From NCBI GenBank assembly GCA_934457515.1, contig CAKSHV010000040.1, positions 1 to 9,029 on the forward strand: DNA of 9,029 nucleotides, written 5' to 3'. The notes under the pieces were generated by a model. That model searched no databases. It worked only from the letters and a program-made list of their open reading frames with translations, and had not been told where the DNA came from. Below are positions 1,503 to 7,524 of the stretch, piece by piece. Every line of letters starts with the position of its first letter. Position 1 is the stretch's first letter. The translations under genes and the position numbers were made by a program. Source of the stretch: an uncultured Clostridia bacterium. Lineage in GTDB: Bacteria; Bacillota; Clostridia; RGIG6154.

Positions 1503-2933
1503 ATGCATAACACATATGAAAGCCCGCTTTGCTCAAGATACGCAAGCAAAGAAATGAAATATCTGTTTTCCGAGGACAAAAAGTTTATAACCTGGCGCAA
1601 ACTCTGGATTGCGCTTGCAAAGGCAGAAAAAGAACTCGGACTTGACATTACGGACGAACAGATTGCCGAAATGGAAAGCAATGCGGAAAATATTAACTAT
1701 GATGTGGCAATCGCCCGTGAAAAAGAGGTTCGGCATGACGTTATGGCGCATGTGTACGCATTTGGTACCCAGTGCAAAAAGGCAATGCCCATTATCCATT
1801 TGGGCGCAACCTCTTGCTATGTGGGCGACAATGCGGACCTTATTATTATGTATGAGGGCTTAGAGCTTATTAAAGCAAAATTGGTTACCGCCATGCAGCT
1901 TCTTTCGGATTTTGCATTAAAATATAAAGATATGCCGACTCTCGGCTTTACACATTTTCAGGCAGCACAGCTGACAACGGTCGGCAAGCGTGCATCCCTT
2001 TGGCTGCATGAGCTGTATTTAGACTATGAAAATTTGGAATTTCTGCTTTCCAAAAAGAAATTATTGGGCTCGAAAGGCACAACGGGAACCCAGGCAAGCT
2101 TTATGGAGCTTTTTGAGGGTGACACCGAAAAGGTAAAAGCGCTTGACAAAAGCATTGCAAAGCAAATGGGATATGACGCTGTATACCCGGTTTCGGGACA
2201 AACCTATTCCCGAAAAATCGATTCGCAGATTTTAAATGTGTTATCCGGCATTGCACAAAGCGCTTATAAATTTGCAAACGACATCCGCTTGCTGCAGCAT
2301 TTAAAAGAAATTGAAGAACCGTTTGAAAAAAGCCAAATCGGCTCTTCCGCGATGGCGTATAAACGCAATCCCATGCGTTCCGAGCGTATTTGTGCCCTTT
2401 CAAGATTTGTGCTGGTTGACGCATTAAATCCCGCAATCACGGCATCTACTCAGTGGTTTGAAAGAACACTTGACGATTCTGCAAACAAACGTCTTTCGGT
2501 TTCCGAGGCATTTTTGGCGACCGATGCCATTCTTGCTACCTACATCAACGTGGTAGACGGACTGGTTGTTTATCCCGAAGTCATTAAACAACGCATTTTA
2601 AAAGAATTGCCATTCATGGCAACCGAAAATATTATGATGGACGCTGTAAAAAAAGGCGGGAACAGACAGGATTTGCACGAAAAAATCCGTGTTCACTCCA
2701 TGAAAGCGGGCGAGCAGGTGAAAGTTTTCGGCAAAGAGAACGATTTGGTGGATCGCATCGCGGGCGACCCATCCTTTAATCTGACCAAAGAAGAAATTTT
2801 GGCGGTTATGAAACCCGAAAATTACGTCGGCAGAGCGCCGCAGCAGACAGAAGAGTTTATTTCGGAATACATCAAACCGATTTTGGAAGAAAATAAAGAC
2901 ATTTTAGGCGTTAAAGTGGAACTGAATGTGTAA
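1503..2933 (+). CDS. purB: Adenylosuccinate lyase, vertebrate-like subtype
   Basis: This 476-residue member of the fumarase/aspartase superfamily cleaves SAICAR to AICAR and adenylosuccinate to AMP, both with release of fumarate, in purine synthesis. The superfamily signature is at 280–293: GSSAMAYKRNPMRSE, with the catalytic Ser in the flexible loop at 281/282. RHDVMAH (77–83), HLGATSCYVGDNAD (99–112) and TLGFTHFQAAQLTTVGKR (146–163) supply the active-site histidines and substrate contacts; His151 is the likely general acid/base. Length and the wording MRSER and THFQ-x-AQLTTVGKR follow the human-type enzyme (about 480 residues) rather than the 431-residue B. subtilis type. Two prolines of the human-type motifs are Ala here (THFQA, SSAMA). 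The start ATG has AAAGGAGA just upstream. The gene lies between the aminotransferase and proC in one operon; aspartate from the former would feed this pathway. Confidence 0.95.
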   Translation: MHNTYESPLCSRYASKEMKYLFSEDKKFITWRKLWIALAKAEKELGLDITDEQIAEMESNAENINYDVAIAREKEVRHDVMAHVYAFGTQCKKAMPIIHLGATSCYVGDNADLIIMYEGLELIKAKLVTAMQLLSDFALKYKDMPTLGFTHFQAAQLTTVGKRASLWLHELYLDYENLEFLLSKKKLLGSKGTTGTQASFMELFEGDTEKVKALDKSIAKQMGYDAVYPVSGQTYSRKIDSQILNVLSGIAQSAYKFANDIRLLQHLKEIEEPFEKSQIGSSAMAYKRNPMRSERICALSRFVLVDALNPAITASTQWFERTLDDSANKRLSVSEAFLATDAILATYINVVDGLVVYPEVIKQRILKELPFMATENIMMDAVKKGGNRQDLHEKIRVHSMKAGEQVKVFGKENDLVDRIAGDPSFNLTKEEILAVMKPENYVGRAPQQTEEFISEYIKPILEENKDILGVKVELNV

Positions 2934-2948
2934 AGGGGATTGTTTAAA

Positions 2949-3728
2949 ATGACGAAAATTGCATTTATCGGAACCGGGAATATGGGCGGAGCGCTTATAT
3001 TAGGGCTTCTTCGCACAAAATTATATGATGTGTATGTGTACGACCTTGATTCAAACAAAGCAAAACAGTTTGAAGTGAAAGGCGCAACTCTTTGTTCATC
3101 GATTGAATATGCTGCCGAAAATGCGGATTTTTTAATTTTAACGGTGAAACCAAACGTATACCCCTCCGTTTTACAAACCCTTGCAAAGCTGAATTACTCT
3201 AAAAAACTAATTACCGTTGCACCGGGTATTACAACTTCGTTTGTAAAATCCATTCTCCCGAACGCAAGTGTTGTGCGCACCATGCCAAACACGCCCGCCT
3301 TGGTGGGAGAGGGAATAACCCTTGTTGCGGATGGGGAGGATAAAGCCCTTGTTTCCTCGGTGTGTGATATTTTAAACTGCGTCGGCAAAACAGCTGTTCT
3401 TGCGGAGGATTTGTTAGAGGCAGGAACCGCGCTTTCGGGTTCGAGCCCTGCCATTGTATATAAACTCATTGAAGTGATGGCGGAGAGTGCTCTGTCGTAC
3501 GGAATAGGAAAAAAACAAGCTGTGGAAATTGCTGCACAGACCGTTTTGGGCAGTGCAAAAATGGTTTTAGAGACGAAAAAGCATCCGTGCGAGCTGATTG
3601 ACAATGTTTGCTCGCCGGGCGGAACAACCATTGCCGCTATGAACGAGCTTGCCGTTCAGGGCTTTGACAAGGCAGTTTTAAAAAGCATGGAACGCTGCGT
3701 GGACAAAACCAAAAGCATGCGCAAATAA
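2949..3728 (+). CDS. proC: Pyrroline-5-carboxylate reductase
   Basis: This 259-residue cytosolic enzyme catalyses the last step of proline synthesis, reducing 1-pyrroline-5-carboxylate with NAD(P)H. An N-terminal Rossmann fold is shown by KIAFIGTGNMGGA (3–15), LTVKP (64–68) and VVRTMPNTPA (108–117). The C-terminal dimerisation/substrate domain carries SGSSPA (163–168) and the family signature in IDNVCSPGGTTIAAMNEL (217–234). Length is normal for ProC. The ATG at 2949 is preferred over an in-frame TTG at 2940: GGGG (2935–2938) stands 10 bases before the ATG but only one base before the TTG, and family members start directly before KIxFIGxGNMG. It follows the purB stop by 15 bases, so co-transcription is likely. 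No terminator is visible after the stop. Confidence 0.95.
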   Translation: MTKIAFIGTGNMGGALILGLLRTKLYDVYVYDLDSNKAKQFEVKGATLCSSIEYAAENADFLILTVKPNVYPSVLQTLAKLNYSKKLITVAPGITTSFVKSILPNASVVRTMPNTPALVGEGITLVADGEDKALVSSVCDILNCVGKTAVLAEDLLEAGTALSGSSPAIVYKLIEVMAESALSYGIGKKQAVEIAAQTVLGSAKMVLETKKHPCELIDNVCSPGGTTIAAMNELAVQGFDKAVLKSMERCVDKTKSMRK

Positions 3729-4356: not shown

Positions 4357-4375
4357 ATAAATGCAGGTGAAAAAC

Positions 4376-5260
4376 ATGCAGGATAAAGCAAAAAAATATT
4401 TGGACTATCTAAAAAAGAATAAAAAACTGTCCGAAAGCACGCTTTCGGCTTATAAAAAGGATTTAAACGATTATTTTTCCTATCTTTCCATGCAGAATTT
4501 AACCTTAGATACCGTTCGTAAGAAAACCATTTTTGCCTATGAAAACTACTTAGCATCAAACGGAAAATCGGCGTCGTCCATTGCACGTGCACTTTCTTCC
4601 ATGCGTGGCTTTCACCAGTATTTAATGACAACCGGCAAATCAAAAAACAACCCGCTTTTGGGCGTGGAAACGCCAAAACCCGCGCGCGTTATGCCGGGCA
4701 TATTGTCTGTCCGTGAGGTGCAGACCCTTTTGTCGCAGCCGAAATGCACAAATTACAAAGGCTACCGCGACCGTGCCATTTTAGAACTTTTATATGCAAC
4801 GGGAATCCGTGTTTCGGAGCTGATTCAGCTAAAATTTTCAGACGTTGACTTTACAAAAAGAACCATTTCCTGTACCGACAGAATCATTCCGTTCGGCTCG
4901 TTTTCATCCGAAGCACTTGAGGAATACATAAAAATGTCACCTTTTCATTCGGACAAGGAAAAAGACGTGTATCTTTTTACAAACACAGGCGGCAGACAGC
5001 TGACACGTCAGGGTGTTTGGAAAATGATGAAGAAATACACTGCACAGTCGGGCATAGAAAAAGATGTTTCGCCCCAAATTTTAAGGAATTCCTTTGCTGC
5101 GCACTTAATTGAAAACGGTGCGGACGTTAAAATCGTGCAAGAACTTATGGGGCACACGGCGCTGTCGTCCACACTGATTTATGCGGAACTTACCAAAGAC
5201 CGATTGCGTGATGCATATAACAAGGCGCATCCGCGCGCAAAATTTCAAAAATTCGAATAA
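4376..5260 (+). CDS. xerD: XerD-like tyrosine recombinase with degenerate catalytic residues
   Basis: This 294-residue protein has the Xer layout: an N-terminal SAM-like core-binding domain (about 1–90; LSESTLSAYKKDLNDYFSYL) and a C-terminal catalytic domain ending in HPRAKF. Box I is intact (ATGIRVSEL, Arg145), as are Arg237, His260 (LMGH) and the nucleophile Tyr269 (LIYAEL). However, the usual GKGxKER beta-hairpin lysine is absent (ISCTDRIIPFG, 164–174), and box II HxxRH is QILRN, so the catalytic His is Gln234 and the following His is Asn238. Strand cleavage may be weak or lost. The ATG at 4376 is chosen because AGGTGA lies 5 bases upstream; an in-frame ATG at 4361 has no such site. It starts 19 bases after the spoIIM-like stop. 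Its place matches B. subtilis xerD, which resolves chromosome dimers with XerC at dif. Whether this protein still does so is doubtful. Confidence 0.85.
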   Translation: MQDKAKKYLDYLKKNKKLSESTLSAYKKDLNDYFSYLSMQNLTLDTVRKKTIFAYENYLASNGKSASSIARALSSMRGFHQYLMTTGKSKNNPLLGVETPKPARVMPGILSVREVQTLLSQPKCTNYKGYRDRAILELLYATGIRVSELIQLKFSDVDFTKRTISCTDRIIPFGSFSSEALEEYIKMSPFHSDKEKDVYLFTNTGGRQLTRQGVWKMMKKYTAQSGIEKDVSPQILRNSFAAHLIENGADVKIVQELMGHTALSSTLIYAELTKDRLRDAYNKAHPRAKFQKFE

Positions 5261-6485: not shown

Positions 6486-7454
6486 TCATTCCTCCGTAAT
6501 TTCACTTAAAGGGTTATTTTTCACGGCGTTTCGGCGCTGCTCATCATCAACGTGGGTGTAAATCTGTGTTGTCGCAAGCTGATTGTGTCCTAAAATTTCC
6601 TGCAGTGTTCTCAAATCCGTGTGTGCGTATTTATACATTAAAGTTGCCGCGGTATGGCGCAGTTTGTGCACCGAATACTTGGTTTCGTCAAGTCCTGCGG
6701 TCTTAATATATTTTTTAACTAACCACTGCACGGTTTTGTTGCTGATTCTTGTGCCGCGATTGCTTAAAAACAGCGCTTTTTTGTCCACAACGCCGTCGTT
6801 CGGACGAACGCGCAGATAGTTCCGAACAGCCGACAGGCACGCATCATTTAAGTATATAACGCGTTCTTTATTTCCTTTACCGGTTACGATTAAAATATCG
6901 TCTTTAAAATCGTTTAAATTGATATTCACAAGCTCCGAAAGGCGCAGACCGCAGTTTAAAAACAAAGTTAAAATGGCATAGTCGCGGTATTTATTTTCTC
7001 CGTCTACCGCGCTTAAGAGTTCTTTGGATTCATCTAAATTCAAATATTTCGGCAGCGCCTGCTTTAATTTGGGCGAATCCAGCTCTTTTGCAGGGTTATC
7101 CTTAATGTATCCGGCTTTTGATGACATGTATTTAAAATAGCTTCGAAGGCAGGCAACCTTGCGTGCACGCGTTGAAGCGGTGTTGCCGCGGGATTCTGCC
7201 ATATAAGTAAGATAGGCATAAAGGTCCACAAGAGATATTAAATCAGCAAAAGCATAGTTTAAATCCGAAATATCGGTTTCGGTTAAATCATCTGGCACAG
7301 AGCCTGGCTGCTTATAATTTTTCATAAACTGAAAGAACACATGCAGGTCGAGCGCGTATTCTTTAACCGTGCTGATGGATTTTCCTTTAACGGACTGCAT
7401 GTACATTAAAAATTCGCGAGAGATAAACGGCTGGTCGTTGATTCTAAATTCCAT
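6486..7454 (-). CDS. Tyrosine recombinase, XerC/XerD-like, complete catalytic set
   Basis: This 322-residue protein belongs to the phage integrase/Xer family. The N-terminal core-binding domain (about 10–115) has KGKSISTVKEYALDLHVFFQFM and then a longer loop (GSVPDDLTETDISDLNY) than in the upstream XerD-like protein. The catalytic domain has Arg171 (NCGLRLSEL), the GKGNKER lysine hairpin (192–198), His263/Arg266/His267 in VHKLRHT, His290 (ILGH) and the nucleophile Tyr299 (QIYTHV), so all six key positions are present. The ATG at 7454–7452 has GGGGAG 6 bases upstream; an in-frame TTG at 7478 falls inside the palindrome near the predicted transcription start and is rejected. The gene stands alone, converges on dacF and is divergent from the M20 gene. 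No excisionase, phage gene or tRNA target is nearby, which favours a housekeeping Xer role over a prophage integrase. Its own perfect palindrome upstream may be its substrate or operator. Confidence 0.9.
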   Translation of the reverse strand: MEFRINDQPFISREFLMYMQSVKGKSISTVKEYALDLHVFFQFMKNYKQPGSVPDDLTETDISDLNYAFADLISLVDLYAYLTYMAESRGNTASTRARKVACLRSYFKYMSSKAGYIKDNPAKELDSPKLKQALPKYLNLDESKELLSAVDGENKYRDYAILTLFLNCGLRLSELVNINLNDFKDDILIVTGKGNKERVIYLNDACLSAVRNYLRVRPNDGVVDKKALFLSNRGTRISNKTVQWLVKKYIKTAGLDETKYSVHKLRHTAATLMYKYAHTDLRTLQEILGHNQLATTQIYTHVDDEQRRNAVKNNPLSEITEE

Positions 7455-7468
7455 GTTTTTCTCCCCTA

Positions 7469-7498
7469 AATTATACAAAATGTTTATTTTGTATAATT
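7469..7498. repeat. Perfect inverted repeat in the recombinase promoter: possible dif-like site or operator
   Basis: AATTATACAAAAT (7469–7481) and ATTTTGTATAATT (7486–7498) are exact reverse complements around GTTT (7482–7485). Read as a Xer site, it is 11-base arms 7470–7480 and 7487–7497 around a 6-base asymmetric centre TGTTTA, 28 bases in all, the same geometry as bacterial dif sites. TTTTGTATAAT agrees with the E. coli XerD half-site TTATGTTAAAT at 8 of 11 positions. It overlaps the last two bases of the -10, and the predicted transcription start falls inside it. The mRNA would therefore hold only about half, so a DNA-level role is more likely than an RNA hairpin. Confidence 0.85.
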
Positions 7499-7524
7499 AT
7501 ATCATTTTTTAAAGGACTTGTCAA
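7496..7524 (-). promoter_or_regulatory. Full-consensus sigma-A promoter of the minus-strand recombinase
   Basis: Read on the minus strand, TTGACA (7524–7519) and TATAAT (7501–7496) are 17 bases apart, a 12 of 12 match to the housekeeping consensus. The predicted start is near 7489, giving a leader of about 35 bases with GGGGAG before the ATG. Such a strong promoter with a palindrome across its -10 and start region suggests a gene normally held down by a bound protein. Confidence 0.85.

Follow-up and report, generated by a model that had tools for sequence, protein, structure and literature searches.

A perfect palindrome directly upstream of a gene for a tyrosine recombinase, in a stretch of 9,029 nucleotides from an uncultured Clostridia bacterium (the window), raises the question of whether it is the site at which this single Xer enzyme resolves chromosome dimers. 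Xer systems that work with one recombinase include XerS/difSL, XerH/difH and XerA/dif (PMC5357621) as well as XerL (PMC9765430), and have been described from few groups only (PMC5357621, PMC9765430). Searches of the open-licence literature on dif in Clostridia, on single recombinases and on C. thermocellum (main texts) found no paper containing the site strings and no report of the site. A preliminary description of the window had suggested that the palindrome may be the dif site of the adjacent Xer recombinase. Here we show that conservation, copy number, linkage to the gene and position at the GC-skew switch in related genomes support this reading.

The palindrome spans positions 7469-7498 and is assigned no strand. 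It reads AATTATACAAAAT-GTTT-ATTTTGTATAATT, a 30-bp inverted repeat of the form 13-4-13 whose symmetry is perfect out to 13 bp per arm. The same letters can be parsed as 11-6-11, with arms at 7470-7480 and 7487-7497 around the asymmetric centre TGTTTA (7481-7486), which corresponds to the layout of a dif site, about 28 bp with two 11-bp arms and a 6-bp centre. This is the sole perfect 13-bp repeat with a loop of 3 to 8 nt in the 9-kb window, and dinucleotide shuffling produced a repeat of this kind once in 200 versions of the window, shuffling of the local 701 nt twice in 500. Sequence and shuffles confirm the palindrome, in both parsings, as first described; its designation as dif-like further draws on homologous sites and on the covariation of their arms. 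The window also contains an exact 19-nt direct repeat, CTAAATTCCATGTTTTTCT, at 192-210 and 7444-7462, one copy at the end of the first gene and the other across the start of the recombinase gene, which is estimated to be longer than expected by chance.

The adjacent gene (6486..7454, minus strand) encodes a XerC-like tyrosine recombinase of 322 aa, identified by profile matches and by a complete R-K-H-R-H-Y set (R171, K193, H263, R266, H290 and Y299); the palindrome lies 14 bp upstream of its ATG at 7454. The six catalytic residues are invariant in the 27 aligned sequences and all present in 120 of 120 distinct copies of the gene in which the catalytic part is covered. The protein matches the XerC, XerD, XerA and XerS models and stays below the cut-off of every listed NCBIfam family, scoring 230.3 bits against 335.15 for the XerC equivalog TIGR02224, 206 against 220 for the XerA model NF040815 and 147.5 against 267 for the XerS model. 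Its PDB matches include XerD at 123.6 bits, XerC-like/XerA entries at 119.5 and 116.3 bits and XerH at 67.6 bits. The few nearest relatives that carry a name are mostly called 'tyrosine recombinase XerC' and occur in Clostridia. One genome has a single palindrome between two paralogues of this recombinase (G001 C23:17648-21601).

To assess occurrence across genomes we used the 18-bp core ACAAAATNNNNATTTTGT alone as search pattern and the reversed pattern as control. The core is present in 151 of 391 genomes of the class (Clostridia, the class of G001) compared to 24 for the control. It also occurs in 30 of 46 gene-bearing genomes (control 1) and, within one order, in 31 of 58 (control 4); these three genome sets overlap. 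Among the 151 genomes, 135 have one copy and 16 have two, so that in relatives the site is conserved and mostly single-copy, as anticipated for a dif site. Though only seven arm pairs were required by the core, 24 of 30 loci selected with it extend to at least 12 perfect pairs. The gene itself was called in 225 of the 391 genomes (E 1e-80, at most 5 candidates scored per genome). Both gene and site occur in 125 genomes, the site only in 26, the gene only in 100 and neither in 140 (Fisher p 2e-16); the reversed pattern falls in 16 gene-bearing and 8 other genomes (p 0.4). Since the reversed pattern also matches genomes that lack the gene, part of the 26 genomes with the site only can be put down to chance.

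Where both positions are available, site and gene share a contig in 41 of 47 genomes, at distances of 16 bp to 37.6 kb with a median of 116 bp, and 26 of these 41 pairs are at most 161 bp apart. The orientation of the site relative to the gene varies between genomes. The expectation that the palindrome would always stand beside this gene thus holds in a weaker form: the two are mostly linked, but the site can lie up to 37.6 kb away or on another contig.

If the palindrome is a dif site it should mark the replication terminus. GC skew was sampled in 20 stretches per chromosome in four single-contig chromosomes, and in all four it turns from positive to negative at the site: at 1,789,765 of 3,604,547 in G010, 2,003,084 of 4,731,216 in G039, 891,560 of 3,843,301 in G019 and 1,470,838 of 3,135,972 in G130. 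The switch lies within about 1 kb of the site in G039, G019 and G130 and within about 5 kb of it in G010; G019 has a second match at 1,591,796, away from the switch. In three relatives of the window (G112, G146 and G172) the skew of the contig also switches at the site, and the signal is weak in the short contig of a fourth, G199. For 29 sites the flanking sequence reaches 4 kb or more in both directions; 22 of them show a sign change greater than 0.1, all 22 in the terminus sense, compared to 112 such changes at 745 random positions in the same loci, a background that is raised since many of the loci had been retrieved around a site of this kind. At least one member of the set (L369 5957) has the appearance of a terminator hairpin instead, and in G211 the skew shows no switch across 20 kb around the site. 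Within the window the skew is mixed; the predicted proximity to the skew switch is therefore borne out in relatives only, by the four chromosomes and the three clade contigs from which the terminus placement is read. A position at the skew switch would also suit a Ter-like site, at which a bound terminator protein arrests replication. Known replication-arrest sites come in several polar copies. The palindrome, mostly present once per genome, symmetric in sequence and linked to a recombinase gene, departs from this, and we consider a Ter-like function highly improbable.

The arms of the site are not the same in all genomes. Some genomes without the core have, close to the gene, a palindrome with identical geometry, such as CATTCAACGAAAT-4-ATTTCGTTGAATG in G280 and TATTTCGGGAAAT-4-ATTTCCCGAAATA in G333; near the gene in G022, G023, G026, G028, G006 and G024, among others, no palindrome of that form was found. 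The preliminary description had held that absence or variation of the palindrome beside orthologues would speak against its reading, and this applies in part: the core is missing in 100 of 225 gene-bearing genomes, several of which have such a variant palindrome of the same geometry. Variant arms such as CGCTAAAT, CGGGAAAT and AACGAAAT also stand near the gene in further loci (L369 10762, L368 9285, L370 9110, L367 10984 and L359 7359). The variant palindromes near the gene are likely the versions of the site that belong to other lineages.

We defined a general form, AAAT-4-ATTT with no more than a single mismatch among the seven adjoining pairs, and examined 123 gene loci, a few of them duplicates (G001 and G084 each appear twice) and one from a viral contig. 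A site of this form occurs within 3 kb of the gene in 64 of them, compared to 2 sites in 736,553 bases farther out; the other 59 loci have none within 3 kb, many of the loci spanning only about 1.5 kb per side. The 34 different sites compared, which were in part chosen for being symmetric, show changes on both sides in 9 of 13 pairs, giving 60 double-change cells against 13.4 after shuffling, while the inner four pairs AAAT/ATTT, which are part of the selection pattern, are constant. An XerCD/dif site has two different half-sites; here the arms are identical and co-vary. Since the arms vary between genomes and yet change together, the simplest explanation is that one protein reads both.

Covariation alone would also fit the stem of a transcribed hairpin in the 5′ leader of the recombinase gene, acting on mRNA stability or translation, and the palindrome does fold into a hairpin of -9.4 kcal/mol (z -5.84). 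The constancy of the inner AAAT/ATTT pairs in the 34 sites is unlike a stem conserved for pairing only, with the qualification that these pairs belong to the selection pattern. The varying distance and orientation of the site relative to the gene do not suit a leader element, and the terminus position would have no explanation. We regard a leader hairpin as extremely improbable.

The window's own palindrome does overlap a promoter. On the minus strand we predict a sigma70 promoter for the recombinase gene, with the -35 hexamer TTGACA at 7519..7524 and the -10 hexamer TATAAT at 7496..7501, separated by 17 nt and matching the consensus at 12 of 12 positions; its -10 hexamer overlaps the outer end of the palindrome and thereby the outer arm. 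This overlap is a point that was absent from the preliminary description. Downstream, AGGGGAG (7461..7467, minus strand) is the likely ribosome-binding site of the recombinase and doubles as the G-rich tail that follows many homologous sites: of 80 oriented sites, 45 have GGG within 12 nt and 11 have CCC on the opposite side. Four relatives (G199, G146, G172 and G112) have arms identical to those of the window just upstream of their recombinase gene, around the centre AAAG in the first three and AAAA in G112, where the window has AAAC; their recombinases are 82-83% (G199 and G146) or 64% (G172 and G112) identical to that of the window. The -10 overlap is found in 4 of 4, and all five clade members read TTGACA-17-TATAATTATACAAAAT. 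Thus, the predicted promoter and the site are fused in this clade. G146 has a second copy of the 18-bp pattern besides the one next to the gene.

Because the site overlaps the predicted promoter, the bound recombinase would likely repress its own gene in the window's clade. Such an arrangement could also mean that the palindrome is an operator and nothing else, occupied by a dimeric repressor, either the recombinase or an unrelated regulator, that covers the -10 hexamer and the start site; a perfect predicted promoter whose -10 lies inside the outer arm, in the window and in all four relatives, is what this explanation would lead one to expect. In other genomes, however, site and gene are separated by hundreds or thousands of bases (37.6 kb at most), in either orientation, and there is no reason for an operator to mark the GC-skew switch. 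An operator function by itself is thus very unlikely, and regulation could be a second role of the same site. Operator and leader hairpin were both rejected as sole roles on the grounds that in other genomes the site is far from the gene and sits at the skew switch. Taken on the evidence of sequence, the palindrome is very probably the dif site of this Xer system.

How many catalytic recombinases act at this dif site is a separate question. The window encodes a second enzyme, a XerD-type recombinase at 4361..5260 (plus strand), flanked by a weak spoIIM match (25 bits; cut-off 100.2) and by a gene for a D-Ala-D-Ala carboxypeptidase. It scores 311.7 bits against a cut-off of 329.6. The reading frame is open, the hairpin with the catalytic Lys is four residues shorter and the His of the HxxR motif is replaced by Gln. 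The loss of Lys and His is common to 15 of 15 clade proteins (P0121-P0135, 60-100% identity, the first identical), and the same active-site defects occur in G199 and G146. The earlier characterization of this second recombinase as degenerate is therefore right for the active site and wrong for the frame. The retention of a dead XerD as a conserved open frame in the clade suggests a non-catalytic role. Outside the clade the active-site changes differ, with R to K and H to N, T, D, K or Q.

XerCD/dif requires a catalytically complete XerC and XerD, a pair that the window's clade lacks; XerD is complete in other site-bearing genomes. In the order of G001, 13 genomes were inspected: 12 have a catalytically complete XerD, and in G056 none was found. 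Among 80 of the 125 genomes with both gene and site, XerD scored above the cut-off in 24, below it in 28 and was not found in 28 (E 1e-70); among 80 genomes without gene and site the corresponding numbers were 20, 18 and 42, incomplete genomes inflating the 'not found' counts in both sets. We had expected XerD loss to accompany the site, and this expectation was rejected, loss being as common without gene and site. XerD decay thus appears as a general trend of the class sample and is not evidence tied to the site. With XerD above the cut-off in 24 of 80 site-bearing genomes, the palindrome coexists there with a possible partner. The preliminary description had also named a classical Firmicute dif site with intact XerC and XerD as evidence that would overturn its reading. 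An intact XerD was found in part of the group, whereas the classical dif core remained at background, with up to 3 mismatches in 15 of 67 genomes against 16 for the reversed control and in 4 of 80 against 4, a result that says little as the query, a B. subtilis-type core, was perhaps too narrow.

The palindrome might accordingly be the dif of a two-protein system, in which the XerC-like enzyme and XerD take one half-site each and, in the window's lineage, the inactive XerD stays as a structural or FtsK-contacting partner. Intact XerD in many site-bearing genomes fits this arrangement, as does the dead XerD frame kept at 60-100% identity, which suggests a remaining role. In the window and several relatives, no more than a few kb separate the site and xerD. 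In two genomes xerD is the nearer of the two recombinase genes: G066 (C16:21051-22720) has 0.8 kb between site and xerD and carries the XerC-like gene on a different contig, and in G273 (C4:122994-123995) the site is separated from xerD by 0.1 kb and from the XerC-like gene by 37.6 kb. These two genomes led us to hold the action without a catalytic XerD very slightly less firmly. One palindrome arm also agrees at 8 of 11 positions with a XerD half-site. Identical arms that change together would, however, be needless for two different DNA-binding proteins, and a dead XerD would be unable to carry out its own strand exchange. Furthermore, XerD was not found (E 1e-70) in 28 of 80 site-bearing genomes, for example G241, some of them perhaps incomplete, and in the single-contig chromosomes G010, G019, G039 and G130 the site is 1-16 kb away from the XerC-like gene but 58-353 kb away from xerD. 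On balance we consider a division of the half-sites between two proteins rather unlikely. From the symmetric arms and the dead or missing XerD we infer action by one recombinase: the palindrome is probably the dif of the adjacent enzyme, which is predicted to act without a catalytic XerD partner.

In the proposed mechanism, a single protein species, the adjacent recombinase, would occupy the two identical half-sites, and four copies of it would bring the two sites of a chromosome dimer into synapsis at the terminus. Cleavage would occur at the edges of the 6-bp centre, and strand exchange by this enzyme alone, presumably dependent on FtsK, would yield two monomers. The asymmetric centre would hold the two sites aligned in one direction. 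In the clade, the recombinase bound at the promoter-overlapping site would in addition repress its own gene.

This system shares features with each of several known ones. As in XerS/difSL of streptococci and lactococci, one recombinase gene stands directly beside the site, but difSL measures 31 bp and has unequal arms and an 11-bp centre in place of two identical arms in an 11-6-11 layout (PMC5357621). The L. helveticus xerS gene lies near the skew shift point (PMC3025954). XerA/dif likewise uses a single recombinase on an 11-6-11 site, XerA being archaeal (PMC5357621). XerL/dif of Legionellales resembles the present system in dimer resolution by a single recombinase at a palindromic site near the terminus; on a Coxiella plasmid the site is beside the gene, and XerL, from a different bacterial group, is set beside the window's system by its description (PMC9765430). 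XerCD/dif of Firmicutes (CodV/RipX) has a 28-bp 11-6-11 site at the terminus, as here, and some relatives of the window have an intact XerD; it differs in having two different half-sites for two recombinases, compared to identical co-varying arms and an inactive XerD in the clade (PMC3025954). Kono et al. predicted dif for 97 of 100 Firmicutes, and some of the present sites may already be among their XerCD dif predictions (PMC3025954).

The palindrome also turns up in sequences filed as viral. Its exact 24-base form is carried by 13 IMG/VR contigs (L282-L294); L284 and L293, the two whose reading frames were inspected, resemble tailed-phage contigs (portal and terminase by eye). The centres on the viral contigs are mostly other ones, such as ACCT and ACAT, and differ from those of chromosomal sites near the gene. 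It is possible that these are phages using the host site, or that they are unrelated. L283, filed as viral, has a recombinase orthologue (53%) and the palindrome 522 bp apart (1834-3335).

In its widest form, the proposal is that across much of the class Clostridia a lone recombinase resolves chromosome dimers, giving a fifth Xer type of this kind beside XerS, XerH, XerA and XerL, in which symmetric dif arms evolve together with the enzyme, XerD is repeatedly inactivated or lost, and the fusion of dif and promoter in the window's clade forms a self-regulating module; we judge this to be evenly poised. If it is true, a large part of Clostridia would join the single-recombinase Xer systems, and the background-level occurrence of the classical dif core in these genomes could be explained. 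The site would serve as a sequence criterion by which the terminus of a draft genome could be located, and the class would present a natural series in which two catalytic recombinases are reduced to one. As both arms change jointly, the evolution of recombinase specificity becomes directly testable.
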